Shown here: in pieces, positions 1-63,889 of the stretch
Numbering within the stretch: the first letter of the stretch is position 1
Layout: the number at the start of each line of letters is the position of its first letter
Virus record (IMG/VR): IMGVR_UViG_3300045258_000102
Coordinates: 1-64,000 of that record
Strand: one strand, 5' to 3'
Length of the DNA stretch: 64,000 nt
From: a virus
Notes under the pieces: generated by a model
The model's database searches: none
What the model saw: the letters and a program-made list of their open reading frames with translations, nothing else
Told to the model about the DNA's origin: nothing
Program-made: the position numbers and the translations under genes

Positions 1-2
1 TC

Positions 3-137
3 GCCGTGACTCCGCTTGATCTGCACCACGCACAGTTCGATTTTTACGGAGTCCCAGAGCCATCAACCTGGCTGCTGCTGACCATTGGCGTCGGATTCTG
101 CGTCCTGCGCAAAGTGCCTCTCTTATCGCGCCGGTAA
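3..137 (+). CDS. PEP-CTERM protein, 3' end only
   Basis: Only the last 44 residues are in the window; the reading frame enters from the left edge and stops at TAA 135-137. The tail reads GVPEPSTWLLLTIGVGF followed by a short basic end (LRKVPLLSRR). This is a PEP-CTERM sorting signal: a Pro-Glu-Pro motif, one hydrophobic helix and an Arg-rich tail, which exosortase systems recognise during export to the outer surface. The body of the protein is outside the window, so its activity is unknown. It could be flanking host DNA or another phage cargo gene, since a second PEP-CTERM signal occurs at 61.8 kb. Confidence 0.8.
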   Translation, partial: AVTPLDLHHAQFDFYGVPEPSTWLLLTIGVGFCVLRKVPLLSRR

Positions 138-30332: not shown

Positions 30333-32720
30333 TCAGTAAGTTGAGCCGGCCATCACCGCTCTCGATGCGCCGACGGGAACGTGAGTAATTGTGATTTGGT
30401 TTGGAGTCCAGCCATTCCAGAATGTCGTTTGACTGCCCTGCGTGTAGTCGTAGGCAATCTGCGCAGAAGTTAAGACGACGTTGTAGAGCTGTACGTCGCT
30501 CAGTCGCCCAGCAAAAAGAGTGTCGTTACCACTACGCGCTGCGACCGCCACGCCGAGCTTCGTAATGCCAGATGGCGTGATAGAAGTTGTTTCCGCGCTA
30601 CCAGCCACGCCCTCGAAATACGCTGTGCGACTGGCCACTGCGCTCGTGAGTCCGGCTGCGTGATACCAAGTATTCGCCGCAAATGTTCCGGTGTCCGCAT
30701 TGGCTGCGGTGCCGTTGCGGGTTGTCATTCGCGCCGGCTTGCCGCCGACACTTCCAGCCGCGAATAAACCGAAATAGTTATCTGTGACCGTGGGATCGGC
30801 GAGCGAAAGAATCGTTTGGAACGCGGCGGCGTTCGTAGAATTAAAATGCCCCATGATCGTCAACGGAACGGCGGTAATAATGCTCGCGCTGGCAATTCCA
30901 TATTGGGTCGTGCCGTTGTAGCCATAGGTCGTATTGCTCCACGGGCCTGTGGATGCGGTTGTGCTAGGACTGCCCGTCATCGTGAGGTTGTTGACGCTGC
31001 GAGTGCGGTCGTTGCCGCCGCCCGTGAAGTAGTAGGCGCGGAGCTGATAGGGATAGGCGTTGAACTGGCCAAAGCTAGCCGTGGTGCTGTAGGCGGATGC
31101 GCCCGAGTTGCCTGCATAGACGCGCAGCGCCGGGCCGCCCGTCGTCAGCAGGTCGCCGGGGTACTTCACCTTGAGGACCGCATAGTTGCCCGCGTAATTG
31201 AATTCAACCGCGTCAAAGCAGCACTCTTGCCCGGCAACCGTGGAAACGCGAATGTCCTTGCCGTCCGAGGCGACTGCCGCCCACCAAGCGGTGTTCGTAT
31301 TGTCGATGACAACCGTAAGTAGCGGAGCCCACAGATTCGCCGTTGGCGCATCTCCGGTCGCCTGGATGTAATTTGTCCAACTGCCAAAACTACTAACGGT
31401 GGCAGCCGTGCCCTCAAGTGGCACAAACGATTGAAACTTTCCGTTGTGCGCCCACTGGTAGACATCGTGGTTCATCCCGATATCCGTCCCGGTGCCGTCA
31501 GCATAGCCCACGTCGGCGGTGATAAGATTCGTCAGCGTCCACGCGCTGCCCCAGGATGAACCGGCCGAGATGTAGGCATTGACGCCCGTGCCAACTGCTG
31601 TGCCACCATCATTAGCAAACACCACGCTGATCTGGTCGCTGCCGTCGATCACGCAATCTAGGTGGTCGGGGTATTTCCACTCGTAGGAAGCGGAGTCGGG
31701 GCTGATCGCGGCAATCGACCAGCTTGAGCCGTTCCAGGTGTAGTGATAGAGCCTGGAGTTGCCGCTGCCTGCGTCCTTGCGCCCGTGGAAAGCGTGAGGG
31801 TGGCCGGATGAATCGACACAAAAACAATCGTGCCCGCTGAGGTTTGTTGTCGTGCCGGAGCTGTCAACAATCTCACAGTTGGCTAAGGTGGCGGGAATGG
31901 TTTGCGCGCCGGTCGTTTTCGTGAACGTCGAGCCATTCCAGCGCATGACACTTACGTCATGCTGTTCAAAGACTCCGCCGCCCTGCTGCCGCCAGGTCCA
32001 CATAAACCAGGCAAAGCCAGTTCCTGCACCATCAAAGTTGGATGTGAACTGCGGAGGGCCGTCGAGGTAGGCATTCTGCGTCGGGCTGCTCGCGGTGCCT
32101 TGGATGATGAGGCCACCACTGCCAGAGCCAGCCGCCGCCGCCCATGTCTGGCCGCTCTCGGTGTACTTGTAAAAATACTGATCGCCGTTGCCGCTCGCAC
32201 CGTTGCGGAAGGTGAAGTAGAGCTTGCCGACCGGATCAACACAGAAGCGCGGATAGGTAACTAAGTCCTCATTCGTGCCCACCATCGAGAGTGTGCCGGT
32301 GAGCGTCCCCGAAAAGCTAGCCAGCGCCGTCGTGGTGCGCCGATACAACAGCGCGTTGGCGTGCATGTTGTAGCAGATGTGCAAATAGCCATCGGCGTCG
32401 ATGGCGAGCGCGACCGTGTTGTGATTGTCCACCGTGCGCGTGATGGAGGGCGAATTGGTCACGCCGTCATAGATGTAGAACGACCACGCGCCGCCGTTCT
32501 GTCGAATGGCCAACTCTAAAACTTCACTGGCCCCCGCCCACCACGCGGCTACCTGCCATTCCGTGCCGCTAATGTTGCGACTAACAAGCGGGGCCGCGCC
32601 GTTGCGGTTGTAGTTGGCATTCGTAGCTACGTCGCCGGAGGCGGTAATAGACAGCGCACGGACGGGGACTGGCGAACTGCCCGGCGTCCAATCCATGATT
32701 CCAACTGGAAGTGCTGCCAT
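30333..32720 (-). CDS. Tail fibre with BNR-repeat and LamG-like domains
   Basis: 795 residues. Residues 20 to about 460 match the BNR_4 seven-bladed propeller: DNHNTVALAIDADGYLHI (His100) followed by NMHANALLYRR (His120), then NEDLVTYPRFCVDPVGKLYF. In known members this fold binds or cleaves acidic polysaccharides (ulvan-lyase-like). Residues about 480-580 look like a DUF2341-type domain (LRVYAGNSG) and about 590-770 like a LamG/concanavalin domain (NTWYHAAGLTSAVASRTAYF, GRLSDVQLYNVVLT). No phage chaperone or collagen repeats. First large gene of the late block, so likely the main receptor-binding or depolymerase protein. Confidence 0.75.
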   Translation of the reverse strand: MAALPVGIMDWTPGSSPVPVRALSITASGDVATNANYNRNGAAPLVSRNISGTEWQVAAWWAGASEVLELAIRQNGGAWSFYIYDGVTNSPSITRTVDNHNTVALAIDADGYLHICYNMHANALLYRRTTTALASFSGTLTGTLSMVGTNEDLVTYPRFCVDPVGKLYFTFRNGASGNGDQYFYKYTESGQTWAAAAGSGSGGLIIQGTASSPTQNAYLDGPPQFTSNFDGAGTGFAWFMWTWRQQGGGVFEQHDVSVMRWNGSTFTKTTGAQTIPATLANCEIVDSSGTTTNLSGHDCFCVDSSGHPHAFHGRKDAGSGNSRLYHYTWNGSSWSIAAISPDSASYEWKYPDHLDCVIDGSDQISVVFANDGGTAVGTGVNAYISAGSSWGSAWTLTNLITADVGYADGTGTDIGMNHDVYQWAHNGKFQSFVPLEGTAATVSSFGSWTNYIQATGDAPTANLWAPLLTVVIDNTNTAWWAAVASDGKDIRVSTVAGQECCFDAVEFNYAGNYAVLKVKYPGDLLTTGGPALRVYAGNSGASAYSTTASFGQFNAYPYQLRAYYFTGGGNDRTRSVNNLTMTGSPSTTASTGPWSNTTYGYNGTTQYGIASASIITAVPLTIMGHFNSTNAAAFQTILSLADPTVTDNYFGLFAAGSVGGKPARMTTRNGTAANADTGTFAANTWYHAAGLTSAVASRTAYFEGVAGSAETTSITPSGITKLGVAVAARSGNDTLFAGRLSDVQLYNVVLTSAQIAYDYTQGSQTTFWNGWTPNQITITHVPVGASRAVMAGSTY

Positions 32721-45195: not shown

Positions 45196-46023
45196 TCACA
45201 AGGACTTGAGGGTTGCGAGAAAATCGTTTGGATTGGCCGGTGGGCGAAAGCCTGGAACGCTGGATTTGCCCGGCTCAAAGACGAAGGCGACCGGGATCCG
45301 GCTCGCGCCAAACTGCCTGGCCGTCTGCGGGTACTGGTCGACATCGATCAGACAGAAAACCAGATTGTCGGCGATGTACTGCTTGAGCGTCGGATCGGCC
45401 AGCGTCTGGTTCTCGATTGGCTTGCACCAGCTGCACCACGTGGCCGTGAAGAGTAGCAGCACCTTACGCCCACTCATCTTCGCGGCAGCCGTGGCTGAAG
45501 CTAGGTCGTCGTACCGCTCGCGCAGCTGCGGCTCTGGTGGCTTCTCAGCGGCCTTGGTTTCGTAGCTGGCGAGCTGGGCTTTGAGTTCGACGTTCTCTTG
45601 TTTGACGATCTTGTAGGCCGCCGACAGCGAATTATCCATCAGTTCGAGCTGATTGTACTGAGCTTGGAGCTCGGCCAGCTGTTTCTTAATGTCGGCGTTT
45701 TGCTGCTTTAAGTCATCCATTTCCTTGGTATTGAAATCTATAGCCCCCAGCCGCAACCGCCACTCGGTACGGGCTTGCGTCGGTGCTCCCGCCGTCTCGG
45801 TCTGCTTGTTTCCCAGTGGGCCAACGTAGTCCCCGGGTCCCCAGCCGCCGTCCGGACTCCATGCGTGTGTTGGCGCGTAAGTATGCTCGCCGGCCGGCGC
45901 TGCTGGTTGGTCGACGACTTGGTCACCAACGAGCGGCACGGGAGCCAGCGGCAGCGGGAACAGCAGGTGCGCGGCGACGAATGCGATGCAGGCAGCCAGG
46001 GCGGTGTTGAGCGCGAGTTTCAT
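45196..46023 (-). CDS. Membrane-anchored thioredoxin-like protein
   Basis: 275 residues. N-terminal signal anchor at 4-25 (ALNTALAACIAFVAAHLLFP), a long linker, a coiled coil at about 100-152 (MDDLKQQNADIKKQLAELQA) and a thioredoxin fold at 165-275 with LLFTATWCSWCKP (Cys197, Cys200) and cis-Pro in SRIPVAFVFEPG. The domain would face the periplasm and make or break disulfides. ATGA overlap with the upstream HNH gene. Thioredoxins in phages are usually cytosolic; an anchored one next to a papain-like enzyme is unusual. Confidence 0.75.
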   Translation of the reverse strand: MKLALNTALAACIAFVAAHLLFPLPLAPVPLVGDQVVDQPAAPAGEHTYAPTHAWSPDGGWGPGDYVGPLGNKQTETAGAPTQARTEWRLRLGAIDFNTKEMDDLKQQNADIKKQLAELQAQYNQLELMDNSLSAAYKIVKQENVELKAQLASYETKAAEKPPEPQLRERYDDLASATAAAKMSGRKVLLLFTATWCSWCKPIENQTLADPTLKQYIADNLVFCLIDVDQYPQTARQFGASRIPVAFVFEPGKSSVPGFRPPANPNDFLATLKSL

Positions 46024-54466: not shown

Positions 54467-56161
54467 TTACTCAAAAAACACGTCGGCAGCTTTTGTTCCA
54501 CCGTCGCGCTCATAGCCTTCTGCGGCTTCGAGTCCGCGCAGTCTTCCGATGGCATTATTCCAGGTGGAACTTCCCGAAGAATACCCGGATGACTCTGACA
54601 ACTCCGCCGTAGTCATTCGCGACGGATGTGCTTCGCAAAGTGCATCTAGCATGATGTTCTCAGCCTTTCCGAGTCGCGCCCTAAGCCACTCCCTGAGTGT
54701 CTTTCCACTCGGCTTAGGTTCGACACCCCACGACTCTACCTCCGCAATTCCGAGTGGCGTAATAGTCCATCCGCTTAAATGTCGCCGGCGCAAGCGACCC
54801 AGCGCGTTATTCCATGTCGAGCTATTGGAAGCATATCCAGAATAGAAAGACACCTTCGATGGCGTGGCCGTCTCGTCTTTAAGCCAATAAAACGCTCGCA
54901 AAATTGCACGCTCTGATTTTAATAGAATGATATCATCGTCGCCTACAACAGAGGCTATGGGCGCAGCAGGCTTAACGGTTTCGCGTCGTGACGATGTACG
55001 ACCACTCGGCGTTGCAATAGCAATCTTCTCAGTCGGAGCGCTCACCGTCACAATTGCTTCGCCGTTCAAATGGGCCAACTCGGCAATCTTTTTCAGCCGC
55101 GTCACGACTCCACTGTGAGCCTTTTGCAGTTTCGACACTTCTCCCTGCCAGTGCTTATCGCAATCGGCAGCAGCTTTCTCCGCTGCCTTGATGAGCACGT
55201 TTGGATCGACAGCGGCCGGCTCCTTGGACTCCGCTTTCTTTTTCCATTCGGCGATCTGTTTGCGAAGTTCCTTCGGGTCGTTCGCCTTCGCTTCCTCGAC
55301 CACCGATGCCAACTTAGCGCGAATCTCTGACAGATCGACCGACGCCCAGCCCTTGAGCTTTTCCGTCCCACTGTTGGCTTGCGGCGCAAACGAATCGTAA
55401 GTCTTGAAAAGTGGGAAGGTGATTTGCTTTGGGCCGAATCCTATTTCCGGCGACCACACCCAACCCTCGCCACGTTGCATGGATGCCAGTGTATTCAAAA
55501 CGTCGCGGCCCTTTTGTGCATCACCAGCGCCGTCAATCCAATCTTTGATCGCGTCCCGGTCCAGCTTGTGAATCACTCGCATGGCAACCAGCGTTTCGGC
55601 GCACGTCAGAAAATCCTTGTGGACCTTTTGCGGTCGCTGAGATGCCGAGAGGATCGTCAACCCCTTCCCGCGCCCTTCGCTCGCAAGCCGGTTCGCCCAA
55701 TGCAGCATCTTGCCGGCGTCTGGATCGAGCACCTTCCCCTGTGGTGCAAAGTTGTGAACCTCGTCGATGACGATATAGCGATGCCCGCGCGTGGTGCGAA
55801 ACAGCGTCGATGCGAAGTCCACAAAGAACCGAGTCCGCTCGCCCGGCATCCAGCCGCCAAGATTGATAATGCAGGGGCGGTTGCCGGTTGCGATCAGTTC
55901 GGCGACCTGCTGACCAGAGTGCGCGTTGAGTGGCACATCGGCATACTCGCCGCCAAAGATGACGACGGGGTAGCCAGCAGACTTACCACTTGCCGACAGC
56001 TTGAGCCCCCACCAATCACCCTTCGGGTCGATGATGCAAACCGGCTTCTGATCGTCCAACAGCCCTTCGACCATCGAGCGCAGTACCGACGACTTCCCGG
56101 AGCCCGTTTTGCCAAGAACTGCAATATGCTGTCGGAAAATCTCGGCTGGTAGTTTTGCCAT
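54467..56161 (-). CDS. HerA/VirD4-like ATPase
   Basis: 564 residues from ATG 56161, chosen because TAGGAG lies 9 bases upstream; ATG 56170 touches that site. (Residue numbers count from 56170.) Walker A GKTGSGKSS at 20-28, IIDPKGDWWG at 46-55, Walker B YIVIDEVHNF with Asp136-Glu137, and a sensor-like LTILSASQRP: the DNA-pumping ATPase class of HerA, VirD4 and FtsK. After a coiled coil (about 300-400) come two copies of a winged-helix-like unit marked SGYASNSSTWNNALGRLR and SGYSSGSSTWNNAIGRLR. NurA, the usual HerA partner, is not visible. Might move DNA at replication or conjugation-like transfer; target unknown. Confidence 0.8.
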   Translation of the reverse strand: MAKLPAEIFRQHIAVLGKTGSGKSSVLRSMVEGLLDDQKPVCIIDPKGDWWGLKLSASGKSAGYPVVIFGGEYADVPLNAHSGQQVAELIATGNRPCIINLGGWMPGERTRFFVDFASTLFRTTRGHRYIVIDEVHNFAPQGKVLDPDAGKMLHWANRLASEGRGKGLTILSASQRPQKVHKDFLTCAETLVAMRVIHKLDRDAIKDWIDGAGDAQKGRDVLNTLASMQRGEGWVWSPEIGFGPKQITFPLFKTYDSFAPQANSGTEKLKGWASVDLSEIRAKLASVVEEAKANDPKELRKQIAEWKKKAESKEPAAVDPNVLIKAAEKAAADCDKHWQGEVSKLQKAHSGVVTRLKKIAELAHLNGEAIVTVSAPTEKIAIATPSGRTSSRRETVKPAAPIASVVGDDDIILLKSERAILRAFYWLKDETATPSKVSFYSGYASNSSTWNNALGRLRRRHLSGWTITPLGIAEVESWGVEPKPSGKTLREWLRARLGKAENIMLDALCEAHPSRMTTAELSESSGYSSGSSTWNNAIGRLRGLEAAEGYERDGGTKAADVFFE

Positions 56162-56193
56162 CGGGTTCATCTCCTAGTGGGGGCGGGCGGGGG

Positions 56194-60710: not shown

Positions 60711-61146
60711 TTCGCATCCCTCCTTCCACGCAAGCGTCGAGCGCCGCCATAAAGTCAGCGTCGTAGTCAATGTTGCGCTTCCAGTAGTCCATCTTTACGA
60801 GACGCTTTGCGCTAATTCGAATCCCGCGCAGATCGTTGATGTCGGCCAAGTAGCGCACGGACTGATGCGGGTGGCCCTGCGCCATGGCCCAGAGCCTAGC
60901 CTCGTAAACACTCGCCGCCAGCACGTACCAATACCCATCCGGTCCTGGCGACCATTCATCGCGTTCGCGATCTCTTCGAGTCTTCACCGCCTCCACAATC
61001 CGCTCCGCCGGCACCAGCGCCACAGTAAGCTGCTCCGGCGTCGGGTAGTCCTTGCAGAGCTCGCCGTCGAGCTCCATGTGCTGCAGGTCAGTCGCCAGCA
61101 GGATCGCGGCTAGGTCGTATTTATCGAGGTACATATAGTCTTTCAC
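60700..61146 (-). CDS. Hypothetical protein
   Basis: 148 residues from GTG 61146 (GTGA overlap). Helical (DLAAILLATDLQHMELDGEL, ARLWAMAQGHPHQSVRYLAD) and acidic at the ends. No family recognised. Starts the run of tightly coupled genes leading to the replication pair. Confidence 0.55.
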   Translation of the reverse strand: MKDYMYLDKYDLAAILLATDLQHMELDGELCKDYPTPEQLTVALVPAERIVEAVKTRRDRERDEWSPGPDGYWYVLAASVYEARLWAMAQGHPHQSVRYLADINDLRGIRISAKRLVKMDYWKRNIDYDADFMAALDACVEGGMRSDE

Positions 61147-61367
61147 GCGTTGATGAACGATGCTTCGTCGTATGCCATCGAGGCGCCGATCACCTTCCGC
61201 TGGTCGTTCTCGGCTTGCATCCCGTAGATGCGCGCTAGCTTGTCGACGGATCGCTCAAACTGGTTGATCGCCTCGGTGAAGTTCATGCCAGGAAACTGCT
61301 CCATCGCGCTCTTGAGCGAATAGGCAGCACGTTCAAATCTCTCCGAGAGAAGGTTGACGTTGTTCAC
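61143..61367 (-). CDS. Small helical protein
   Basis: 74 residues from GTG 61367, overlapping the stop of the GH10-CAP gene (GTGA). Helical (NLLSERFERAAYSLKSAMEQ, then FERSVDKLARIYGMQAEN). Its start region GGGAGGATGCGAAGTGA is nearly the same as that at 60710. Confidence 0.6.
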   Translation of the reverse strand: MNNVNLLSERFERAAYSLKSAMEQFPGMNFTEAINQFERSVDKLARIYGMQAENDQRKVIGASMAYDEASFINA

Positions 61368-63139
61368 TTCGCATCCTCCCGGCCGAAGACCGCGATCCAG
61401 TTCCGTCCCCGGTGCGCCACACCGACGCGATCGAAATTCATCTCGACCCATCTGTTATTCAGGTTGATCTTGCCCAAAAGCTGCTGCCGATGTCCGAAGC
61501 TCAGCACCCAGCCGTGGACCATTTCACCGACCGACCACGCGCCGGATCCGTCGTCCTGGGCCAGGTCGTCCGTTGCCGTGCCCTTAAAGCCGAAGCGATG
61601 GGCGGAGGCTTCCACGCCACAGCCTTCGGCGAAGTGGTCGTACCACTGAACCCGGTGGCGAGCGCACTGCATCAAGCACGGATCGACGACCAGTGCCGGC
61701 TTAGCGTAGGCGGCCCGCTCGGCGTTGATGCGCGTGACCATCGTTTGCTCGGTGCTTGAGAGCGGCGTCTCGGCCCGCGCCACGGTCGGCAGTAAGCAGA
61801 GCAGCGCGAGCACCACGCGACACCGTCGCTTGAGCATTCGGCCAATCATCGAGTTAAGACCGATGTAGGCGAGAAGAGCGATCAGGGCGAGTATCCACGT
61901 GCGCGGCTCCGGAACTGCCTTGATCGAGAGCCCGGTCGACTTCGTCAGCGTGAACGCCTTGCCGCCGATCGAGTAGTCGCCAAGGTAGCCGGTGAACGAT
62001 ACGAACCCATTCGCGTCGGCCTTCGCCGTCAGGTTGGTCATCACCGACTTGATGAACGCCTGCCACGCGGCACCAGCGGGGGTCTGCGTGTACCTGCCGT
62101 TGCTGAGGTTGTACAGCGCCATCGTCGGCGCCCAATCCTGCGAACTACCGGTGTTGACCCATGTCCAGTCGTAGACGCCTGTGGTCAGCGGATTGCCGTA
62201 CATCATGCGTAGCGTCTGGTTCATCAGGACGTCGGTGTTCTTGAGCCCGGAGAAGCCACCGAGTTCTGTGAGCACGCTTGGCAATCCGAGAGCGTTGAGC
62301 TTGGCGAGGTTGGATGCGATGCTCGACGGCGTCGGCAGGGCTTCGCCCGACCAGCCCAAGTAATCTTCCATGCCGAGCTCACCGACGTAGCCGCCCGCGG
62401 CCTGGATCTCCTTAACGTCGTTCAGGTATGCCGTGGTGAACCTGCCATTGAACAGATGGTCGTTGTTCACGCCGGCCTGCAGGCTCGGCATCTTGACGTG
62501 GATCTGGTTGTAGATGCTGGCGACGTTGCTATATCCGATCGCCTTGACCCAGTCGGTCACGCTGCTGGACTCGTTGAACACGTCCATCTGCGTGTAGTGC
62601 TGGTGCGTATCGTTCAGCACATAGTTCACGCGGCCCTGCAGCCACGTTACCAGTTGTTTCTTGGCGTTGGAGTCGCCGCCCATCGCCTTCTTCTGCAAGG
62701 AGTTGAGCCAGGACGGCTGGCCTTCCTCCGTGTTGTAGGCCAGCGTGTGGAACCGCGTGCTCAGTTTGTTTTTCGTAGCGAAGTCGTTGAACAGGTCGAT
62801 CGCTCCGAAGTCAATCCTGCCCTTCGTCGATTCCATGTCCATCGGGTAACCGCCGCCGCGAGGCGTGATTGAATTGGCGTTTGCCAGGATCAGGGCCGAT
62901 GCTGTCTTGTTCTGCAGTTGGTCGCTTCCGGCGCCGACCCCGAAGTTGAATGCGTTGCGCGTCATGTTGACAGCAACAGATTGGCCAGGCTGAAAGCCAC
63001 CAATTGTCGCTGTCGCAGTTCGATACTTGGCAATGTTGGCATCCGCCGTGGCCAGCGCGGCGCTGTCCGACGACGAGAGCGCCGCTGATGCTGGTGACGC
63101 CAGCAGCAACAGGGTGAGGGTGGTGAGGATTCGGTTCAT
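61364..63139 (-). CDS. GH10 xylanase-like / PEP-CTERM / CAP-domain protein
   Basis: 591 residues with CGAAAGGAAATCGCC before ATG 63139. Signal peptide 1-19. Residues about 50-370 are a GH10 barrel: FNFGVGAGSDQL, DVFNES with Glu190 (acid/base) and SVLTELGGFSG with Glu292 (nucleophile), then GVYDWTWVN. Residues 409-439 are a full PEP-CTERM signal (VPEPRTWILALIALLAYIGL plus basic RMLKRR). It continues without a stop into a second signal-like stretch (RVVLALLCLLPTVARAE) and a CAP domain (MVTRINAERAAYAKPAL, GWVLSFGHRQQLLG). Two exported proteins seem joined in one frame. ATG for LKRR (near 61837) could restart translation but has no clear ribosome site. Exported host-surface enzymes are rare as phage cargo. 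Confidence 0.8.
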   Translation of the reverse strand: MNRILTTLTLLLLASPASAALSSSDSAALATADANIAKYRTATATIGGFQPGQSVAVNMTRNAFNFGVGAGSDQLQNKTASALILANANSITPRGGGYPMDMESTKGRIDFGAIDLFNDFATKNKLSTRFHTLAYNTEEGQPSWLNSLQKKAMGGDSNAKKQLVTWLQGRVNYVLNDTHQHYTQMDVFNESSSVTDWVKAIGYSNVASIYNQIHVKMPSLQAGVNNDHLFNGRFTTAYLNDVKEIQAAGGYVGELGMEDYLGWSGEALPTPSSIASNLAKLNALGLPSVLTELGGFSGLKNTDVLMNQTLRMMYGNPLTTGVYDWTWVNTGSSQDWAPTMALYNLSNGRYTQTPAGAAWQAFIKSVMTNLTAKADANGFVSFTGYLGDYSIGGKAFTLTKSTGLSIKAVPEPRTWILALIALLAYIGLNSMIGRMLKRRCRVVLALLCLLPTVARAETPLSSTEQTMVTRINAERAAYAKPALVVDPCLMQCARHRVQWYDHFAEGCGVEASAHRFGFKGTATDDLAQDDGSGAWSVGEMVHGWVLSFGHRQQLLGKINLNNRWVEMNFDRVGVAHRGRNWIAVFGREDAK

Positions 63140-63154
63140 GGCGATTTCCTTTCG

Positions 63155-63889
63155 TTACAGGGTTCTTGTATCGATCCACCACGCGACCAGAAACGCGAGC
63201 GGGTTCTTTGTCGTGGGATGATAGATTCGTCCGATGACGAGCGGGTCGGCCTTGCGCTGCGCTGGAAGGACGCCAATCTCGTCGAATACTTTGGCCGCCA
63301 GCGCTCGGCAAGTCGCGTCCATGACAATCGGCTGCGCGAGTGAGATTGGGAATTCGATCTCTTGGAATTCCTTGGGGAAATAACGAGTGAGCACCTTCTG
63401 GTCGCCAGCAGCCGGATACTCGCGCTGATAGATGATTGGATTCGGGCTGCGGTTTTCACCCTTCCCGATCGGCGGATTGTTTGAGGACTGGGGAAACGAC
63501 GACCAGCTTGACTCGCTGCTGTCGGCTTTCGGGCGTTTTCTGGTCGTCCTGATGGCGATTACGCTGACCGGGAAGTTCGGCACAATCGCGTAGCCAGCCT
63601 CCACGGCCGCTAGGCATTTCTCGTAGTACTGGACCCGCGCCAATGCGTTGTTTGCCTGTCGCTCGAACGGTCCGAGCTTCCAGCCGGCCTTTGCCGCCGT
63701 CTCGAGGCACTCGCACATTTCTTTTTCGTCGGCACGTACGATCTCGAGCTTGGCGCGAAACCACTCGGCGAGTTTCGTTTGCGCCTCGCGCATTTCGGCC
63801 GGATTCATCGCCACGAGTTGCATCTCGTCGCTGACGTCGCTTACTGTCGTCGAAGGTACTGAGCCTGCTGTCGCTAGTGACGTGGACAT
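63155..63889 (-). CDS. Hypothetical protein
   Basis: 244 residues. Charged helices at the start (TKLAEWFRAKLEIVRADEKE, ERQANNALARVQYYEKCLAA), a Ser-rich linker (SSESSWSSFPQSSNNPP) and a mixed end with WWIDTRTL. The N-terminal half suggests a coiled coil. No family named. First complete gene of the right block in this window. Confidence 0.55.
   Translation of the reverse strand: MSTSLATAGSVPSTTVSDVSDEMQLVAMNPAEMREAQTKLAEWFRAKLEIVRADEKEMCECLETAAKAGWKLGPFERQANNALARVQYYEKCLAAVEAGYAIVPNFPVSVIAIRTTRKRPKADSSESSWSSFPQSSNNPPIGKGENRSPNPIIYQREYPAAGDQKVLTRYFPKEFQEIEFPISLAQPIVMDATCRALAAKVFDEIGVLPAQRKADPLVIGRIYHPTTKNPLAFLVAWWIDTRTL

Follow-up and report, generated by a model that had tools for sequence, protein, structure and literature searches.

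Surface sorting by the PEP-CTERM/exosortase system is widespread among environmental bacteria but poorly understood. The residues beyond the PEP-CTERM segment of its substrates number 3 at the median and fewer than 10 in 87% of cases (Haft et al. 2006, PMC1569441), and the same study suggested that dramatically longer tails may mark segments that do not function (PMC1569441). Our search of the literature on PEP-CTERM in phages and prophages found no title or abstract describing phage-encoded exosortase substrates. Glycoside hydrolases of family GH10 have been annotated in mangrove soil viral contigs as viral auxiliary CAZymes (PMC6460857); in the available part of that source they appear as table entries, without a described tag or fusion, unlike the phage ORF reported here.

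The ORF lies on the minus strand at 61364-63139 of a window of 64,000 nucleotides, positions 1 to 64,000 of the IMG/VR record IMGVR_UViG_3300045258_000102, and according to the ORF list and its translation runs for 591 codons without a stop. An earlier note had described it as a phage-borne GH10 xylanase, PEP-CTERM anchor and CAP domain in one frame. That it is phage-borne is borne out by the record itself: the first 127 bases of its 72,890 bp are identical to the last 127, and because this terminal repeat is exact we take the genome to be complete and circular at 72,763 bp, with identified phage genes that include a terminase, RusA, primosomal genes, RecT and YqaJ. L003, the relative found for RecT, is a distant phage, and no close relative of the integrase or the terminase was found. 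The minus strand of the window also carries a HerA/FtsK-like ATPase (54467-56170), whose sole relative in the phage collection is MW202482, a 275-aa phage protein with a thioredoxin-like domain (45196-46023), and a 795-aa protein with BNR_4 (1.9e-42) and Laminin_G_3 domains and no PHROG match (30333-32720), which may serve as a tail or cargo protein that binds glycan.

The ORF sits on the strand of the replication genes. The start ATG is preceded by a Shine-Dalgarno-like AAAGGA within the upstream sequence GAAAGGAAATCGCC-ATG, and the gene ahead of it (63155-63889, minus strand, no family match) ends 15 bp before this start. At the other end, the stop and a GTG, probably the start codon of the following gene (61143-61451), overlap as GTGA (61364-61367, minus strand). 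The hydropathy profile peaks three times, at aa 4-20, 416-432 and 440-456. The first agrees with the proposed N-terminal signal peptide (aa 1-20, MNRILTTLTLLLLASPASAA; 63080-63139), and the third with the second signal-peptide-like segment proposed for the middle of the ORF (aa 435-456, MLKRRCRVVLALLCLLPTVARA; 61772-61837), for which Met435 is a possible internal start. Profile searches placed both the GH10 and the CAP domain above their curated cut-offs and the PEP-CTERM segment below.

The GH10 domain (aa 60-328; 62156-62962) matched Pfam PF00331 with E 8.3e-15 and 55.2 bits against a cut-off of 22.1, and nearly all PDB sequence matches of the ORF were GH10 xylanases (phmmer E 2.6e-10). With an alignment of three sequences, including two distant relatives, AlphaFold modelled this part with a pLDDT of 74 and a pTM of 0.75, while the single-sequence model reached a pLDDT of 34. 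All of the top structural matches of the model in the PDB by Foldseek had the GH10 (beta/alpha)8 fold, the best being the XynA structure 7d88 (E 1.8e-19, TM 0.74). The barrel and its catalytic pair, as first proposed, thus hold at the level of profile, modelled fold and alignment: E190 (NE; 62570-62572) and E292 (TE; 62264-62266) align exactly with the XynA catalytic pair (7d88/7d89), falling on positions 202 and 300 of the 7d88 chain, which correspond to E182 and E280 if the numbering is shifted by a constant 20, and it is these two residues that are mutated in the inactive XynA 7d89 (E182A/E280A). Behind the domain a beta-rich C-terminal extension reaches to about aa 400, and XynA shares it, down to a DANG motif, together with the fold and the catalytic pair. 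The identity to XynA is only 18-22%, and the ORF lacks the GH10 subsite motifs ENxxKW and QGH, having GGGYP and EDY in their place in alignment A2; L009 in the same alignment likewise is without ENxxKW. The residues for substrate binding at subsites -2/-1 are lost, so that, judged from the alignment, the catalytic machinery is kept and the sugar-binding subsites are rewritten. Because these motifs are missing, the label xylanase is too precise and the substrate part of the original reading is not established. Two further differences from XynA are the tag and CAP domain that follow and the phage-borne location.

The segment behind the hydrolase (aa 409-439, VPEPRTWILALIALLAYIGLNSMIGRMLKRR; 61823-61915, minus strand) is laid out as a PEP-CTERM tag, with the PEP motif, the helix and the basic cluster all present. 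In the ORF the order runs from VPEP through the helix to RMLKRR, then CRVVLALLCLLPTVARA and the CAP domain, the basic cluster belonging both to the tail of the tag and to the beginning of the second signal-like segment. Many viral PEP-CTERM proteins carry tags that can be aligned with this mid-protein PEP-CTERM-like segment, in several cases through aa 436-447, with a best E of 5e-4 in a small set. The claim that the mid-protein signal is complete is therefore upheld by its layout and by the viral tag alignment but not by the Pfam score, which for PF07589 (aa 408-422) is 12.2 bits, below the cut-off of 20.7. The position of the tag is unusual: 159 residues lie C-terminal of the 24-residue tag region. 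In a control scan of viral contigs with the pattern VPEPxTWxL, which was found in at least 118 viral stretches, some of them perhaps unsorted host flanks of proviruses, the matches listed included 84 ORFs with a hydrophobic tail, and in these the residues beyond the 24-residue tag numbered 7 at the median and 43 at most. That such signals normally end a protein is supported by these ORFs. A tag so far from the C-terminus raises the possibility that it has decayed or is unused, and that the ORF encodes an uncut two-domain envelope protein in which the two hydrophobic stretches make a membrane hairpin and keep the GH10 and CAP domains on the outer side of the inner membrane. The suggestion of Haft et al. 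on much longer tails (PMC1569441) and the score below the Pfam cut-off both fit such a protein. The complete arrangement of PEP, helix and KRR, its alignment with normally placed viral tags and the presence of an ordinary tag on another protein of the same phage count against it, and we consider it unlikely.

The CAP domain proposed for the second half (aa 469-555; 61475-61735, minus strand) is likewise found, matching PF00188 with E 4.4e-5 within the full ORF and, when the region was searched alone, with E 8.7e-6 and 27 bits against a cut-off of 21.1. A sequence search of solved structures returned no relative of it. Like the bacterial CAP/SCP proteins of the YkwD type (TIGR02909), it is a small, presumably exported CAP domain with the W..SxGHR..LL motif; as to the His/Glu residues conserved in the CAP cavity, SAHR and GHRQQLL are legible by eye. 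It differs from them in that its match is far under the TIGR02909 cut-off and no GEN motif, usual in such proteins, could be seen. With a signal-like segment directly ahead of this domain, the polypeptide could be a precursor of two products, cut by exosortase at PEP and by signal peptidase after VARA-456 into a GH10 enzyme bound to the surface and a CAP protein that is set free. The two processing signals are intact and lie side by side within a single open frame. Such a precursor is unprecedented among the 84 tagged viral ORFs of the matches listed, has no conserved relatives and competes with simpler alternatives, and strikes us as rather improbable. The sorting event releasing two products, which the earlier note had entertained, thus stays conceivable and has no positive evidence. 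It is a still more doubtful proposition that a working mid-protein PEP-CTERM would have host exosortase and signal peptidase cut at neighbouring sites and so deliver, in a fixed ratio, a surface-sorted hydrolase and a CAP protein that is released.

The DNA between the two halves hints at how they came together. Two internal ATGs lie near the join, at 61849 (Met431) and 61837 (Met435), and three-frame translation shows that each of the other two frames meets a stop at Met431 or at most 10 bp ahead of it, by a TAA at 61856-61854 and a TGA at 61848-61846, the latter overlapping the Met431 codon as ATGA; we mark 61846-61856 (minus strand) as a putative ancestral gene boundary. Among 181 internal ATGs taken from 20 long phage ORFs, 8 have stops equally close in both other frames, Met431 itself probably being one of them, and this post hoc statistic suggests a former gene boundary. 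Several genes of the operon meet by 4-nt overlaps, as the end of the ORF does, and because of these overlaps and the close stops we read the join as such a boundary. The proposed restart near 61837 has its ATG, Met435, with Met431 as a second candidate, but no Shine-Dalgarno motif precedes either.

The same stops could mean that the fusion is an artefact of assembly or sequencing, in which an erroneous indel or base call deleted the stop between two genes. Besides the stops lying right at the join in both other frames, a frameshift also breaks the integrase-like gene of this contig, so the sequence does contain indels, whether real or false. On the other side, 127 bp is a common assembler k-mer, so that the terminal repeat probably points to a short-read assembly with k=127, in which consensus indels would be few and a sequencing indel therefore unlikely, and the observed frame keeps the alignment with viral PEP-CTERM tags as far as KRR. 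We hold an artefact to be quite improbable. The frame 0 coding signal stays above zero over the entire ORF, with its minimum across the join (aa 421-460), and third-position G+C is equal in its halves (0.82 and 0.81).

The interpretation that we favour, at about even chances, is that two cargo genes, one for a surface GH10 glycan enzyme and one for an exported CAP protein, were joined in frame. It can be envisioned that two neighbouring genes became one frame when a stop was lost or a small indel arose, and the join may be an accidental fusion. The host Sec pathway would export the GH10 part, which the tag helix and basic cluster would anchor in the membrane until a host exosortase cuts at PEP and the enzyme is passed on to trim glycan at the cell surface or in the exopolysaccharide. 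The CAP part could be exported by its own signal-like segment within the same polypeptide, as a helical hairpin with signal peptidase acting after VARA, or could be made as a separate protein from Met431 or Met435. In favour of joined cargo are the circular phage, a second tagged protein, a phage PEP-CTERM family elsewhere and the complete tag layout; against it are the tag score below the Pfam cut-off, the missing relatives, the missing Shine-Dalgarno motif and the post hoc nature of the statistic. The fusion of two cargo genes, as first suggested, is thus favoured by the tag layout, the CAP domain's own signal-like segment, the stops before Met431 and the 4-nt overlaps of the operon, but no separate-gene relative was found in the viral, phage, plasmid and genome collections searched.

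Exactly two ORFs of the phage genome have PEP followed by a hydrophobic stretch. The second encodes a protein of 188 aa (plus strand) that runs from contig position 72334 across the circle junction to window position 137 (L002:18335-18891), as read by translation over the 127-bp repeat, with its C-terminal end at window 1-137. It has a signal peptide, no other known domain and a C-terminal tag of 21.9 bits, above the Pfam PEP-CTERM cut-off. Lying at the contig end, this gene was considered as host flank, which the terminal repeat ruled out; it is phage-encoded. It adjoins an integrase-like gene (L002:17342-18224, contig about 71341-72223, plus strand), so named because of sequence motifs and without a Pfam match, that is split over two frames by a break near L002 17990 (contig about 71,990), either decay or a sequence indel. 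Reading by eye also revealed a tRNA-Ser (CGA)-like 3' half without an encoded CCA (L002:17157-17215, contig 71,156-71,214, minus strand), a possible attachment site (attP); Rfam returned only tRNA-Sec there, sub-threshold at 19 bits, and the host search found no tRNA genes in the phage. From the integrase style and the tRNA-like piece without encoded CCA, we considered Planctomycetota as a possible host.

Together the fused gene and the second tagged gene suggest, as far as sequence can tell, that phages use the exosortase system of their hosts. That lysogens gain a surface glycan enzyme, as had been inferred, is made plausible by two presumably exported tagged proteins, the tRNA-Ser-like piece and the integrase-like gene, although the frame of that gene is broken. 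The enzyme might instead act in the lytic phase, as an exported depolymerase that loosens host capsule or exopolysaccharide for the escape or spread of progeny, the tag providing only the route to the surface. A gene that shares its strand with the replication genes, follows its neighbour after 15 bp and is in no separate cargo position would suit this role; no lysis genes were identified beside the ORF, however, and the second tagged gene adjoins the integrase-like gene, a usual place of lysogeny cargo. We regard a lytic role as very unlikely.

The search for the same fusion in phage databases, which the earlier note had proposed, found no relative. In viral contigs there was no close relative of the full protein, of query A1, of the CAP domain alone or of the 188-aa PEP-CTERM protein, and in the phage collection no match for the full protein or CAP. 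Plasmids gave only Streptomyces GH10 matches (22-25% identity), and genome scans only GH10 at about 21% identity; 10 of the 399 genomes scanned from the phylum of G002 had matches, with 22-31% identity among the matches listed. Neither a GH10-tag-CAP fusion nor its two genes apart occurred in viral contigs, phages, plasmids or genomes, and because no separate or fused relative was found, it is the layout that argues for a two-gene origin. PEP-CTERM genes do recur in other viruses, with a cluster of at least 10 loci (L012, L013, L046, L049, L071, L077, L095, L096, L098 and L115), which in L046 lies with terminase and portal genes and in L077 with a major head protein; the L077 member had no match among INPHARED phages.

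If the sorting proposed here is true, tagged phage genes would mean that phages depend on host machinery to alter the host surface. Such genes would be natural, separable substrates for exosortase tests, and the fused ORF would be a test case for whether the tag must be C-terminal. With the phage PEP-CTERM family of IMG/VR (L012, L046, L077 and L098) the ORF shares residence in a phage and a signal peptide with a tag, the members of that family lying near terminase, portal or head genes; it differs from them in that theirs is a tag at the extreme C-terminus, with no GH10 or CAP domain. With the substrates of the EpsH-type exosortase (PMC1569441) it shares the signal peptide, the PEP motif, the transmembrane helix and the basic cluster, and unlike them it is phage-encoded and carries its tag 159 residues from the C-terminus.
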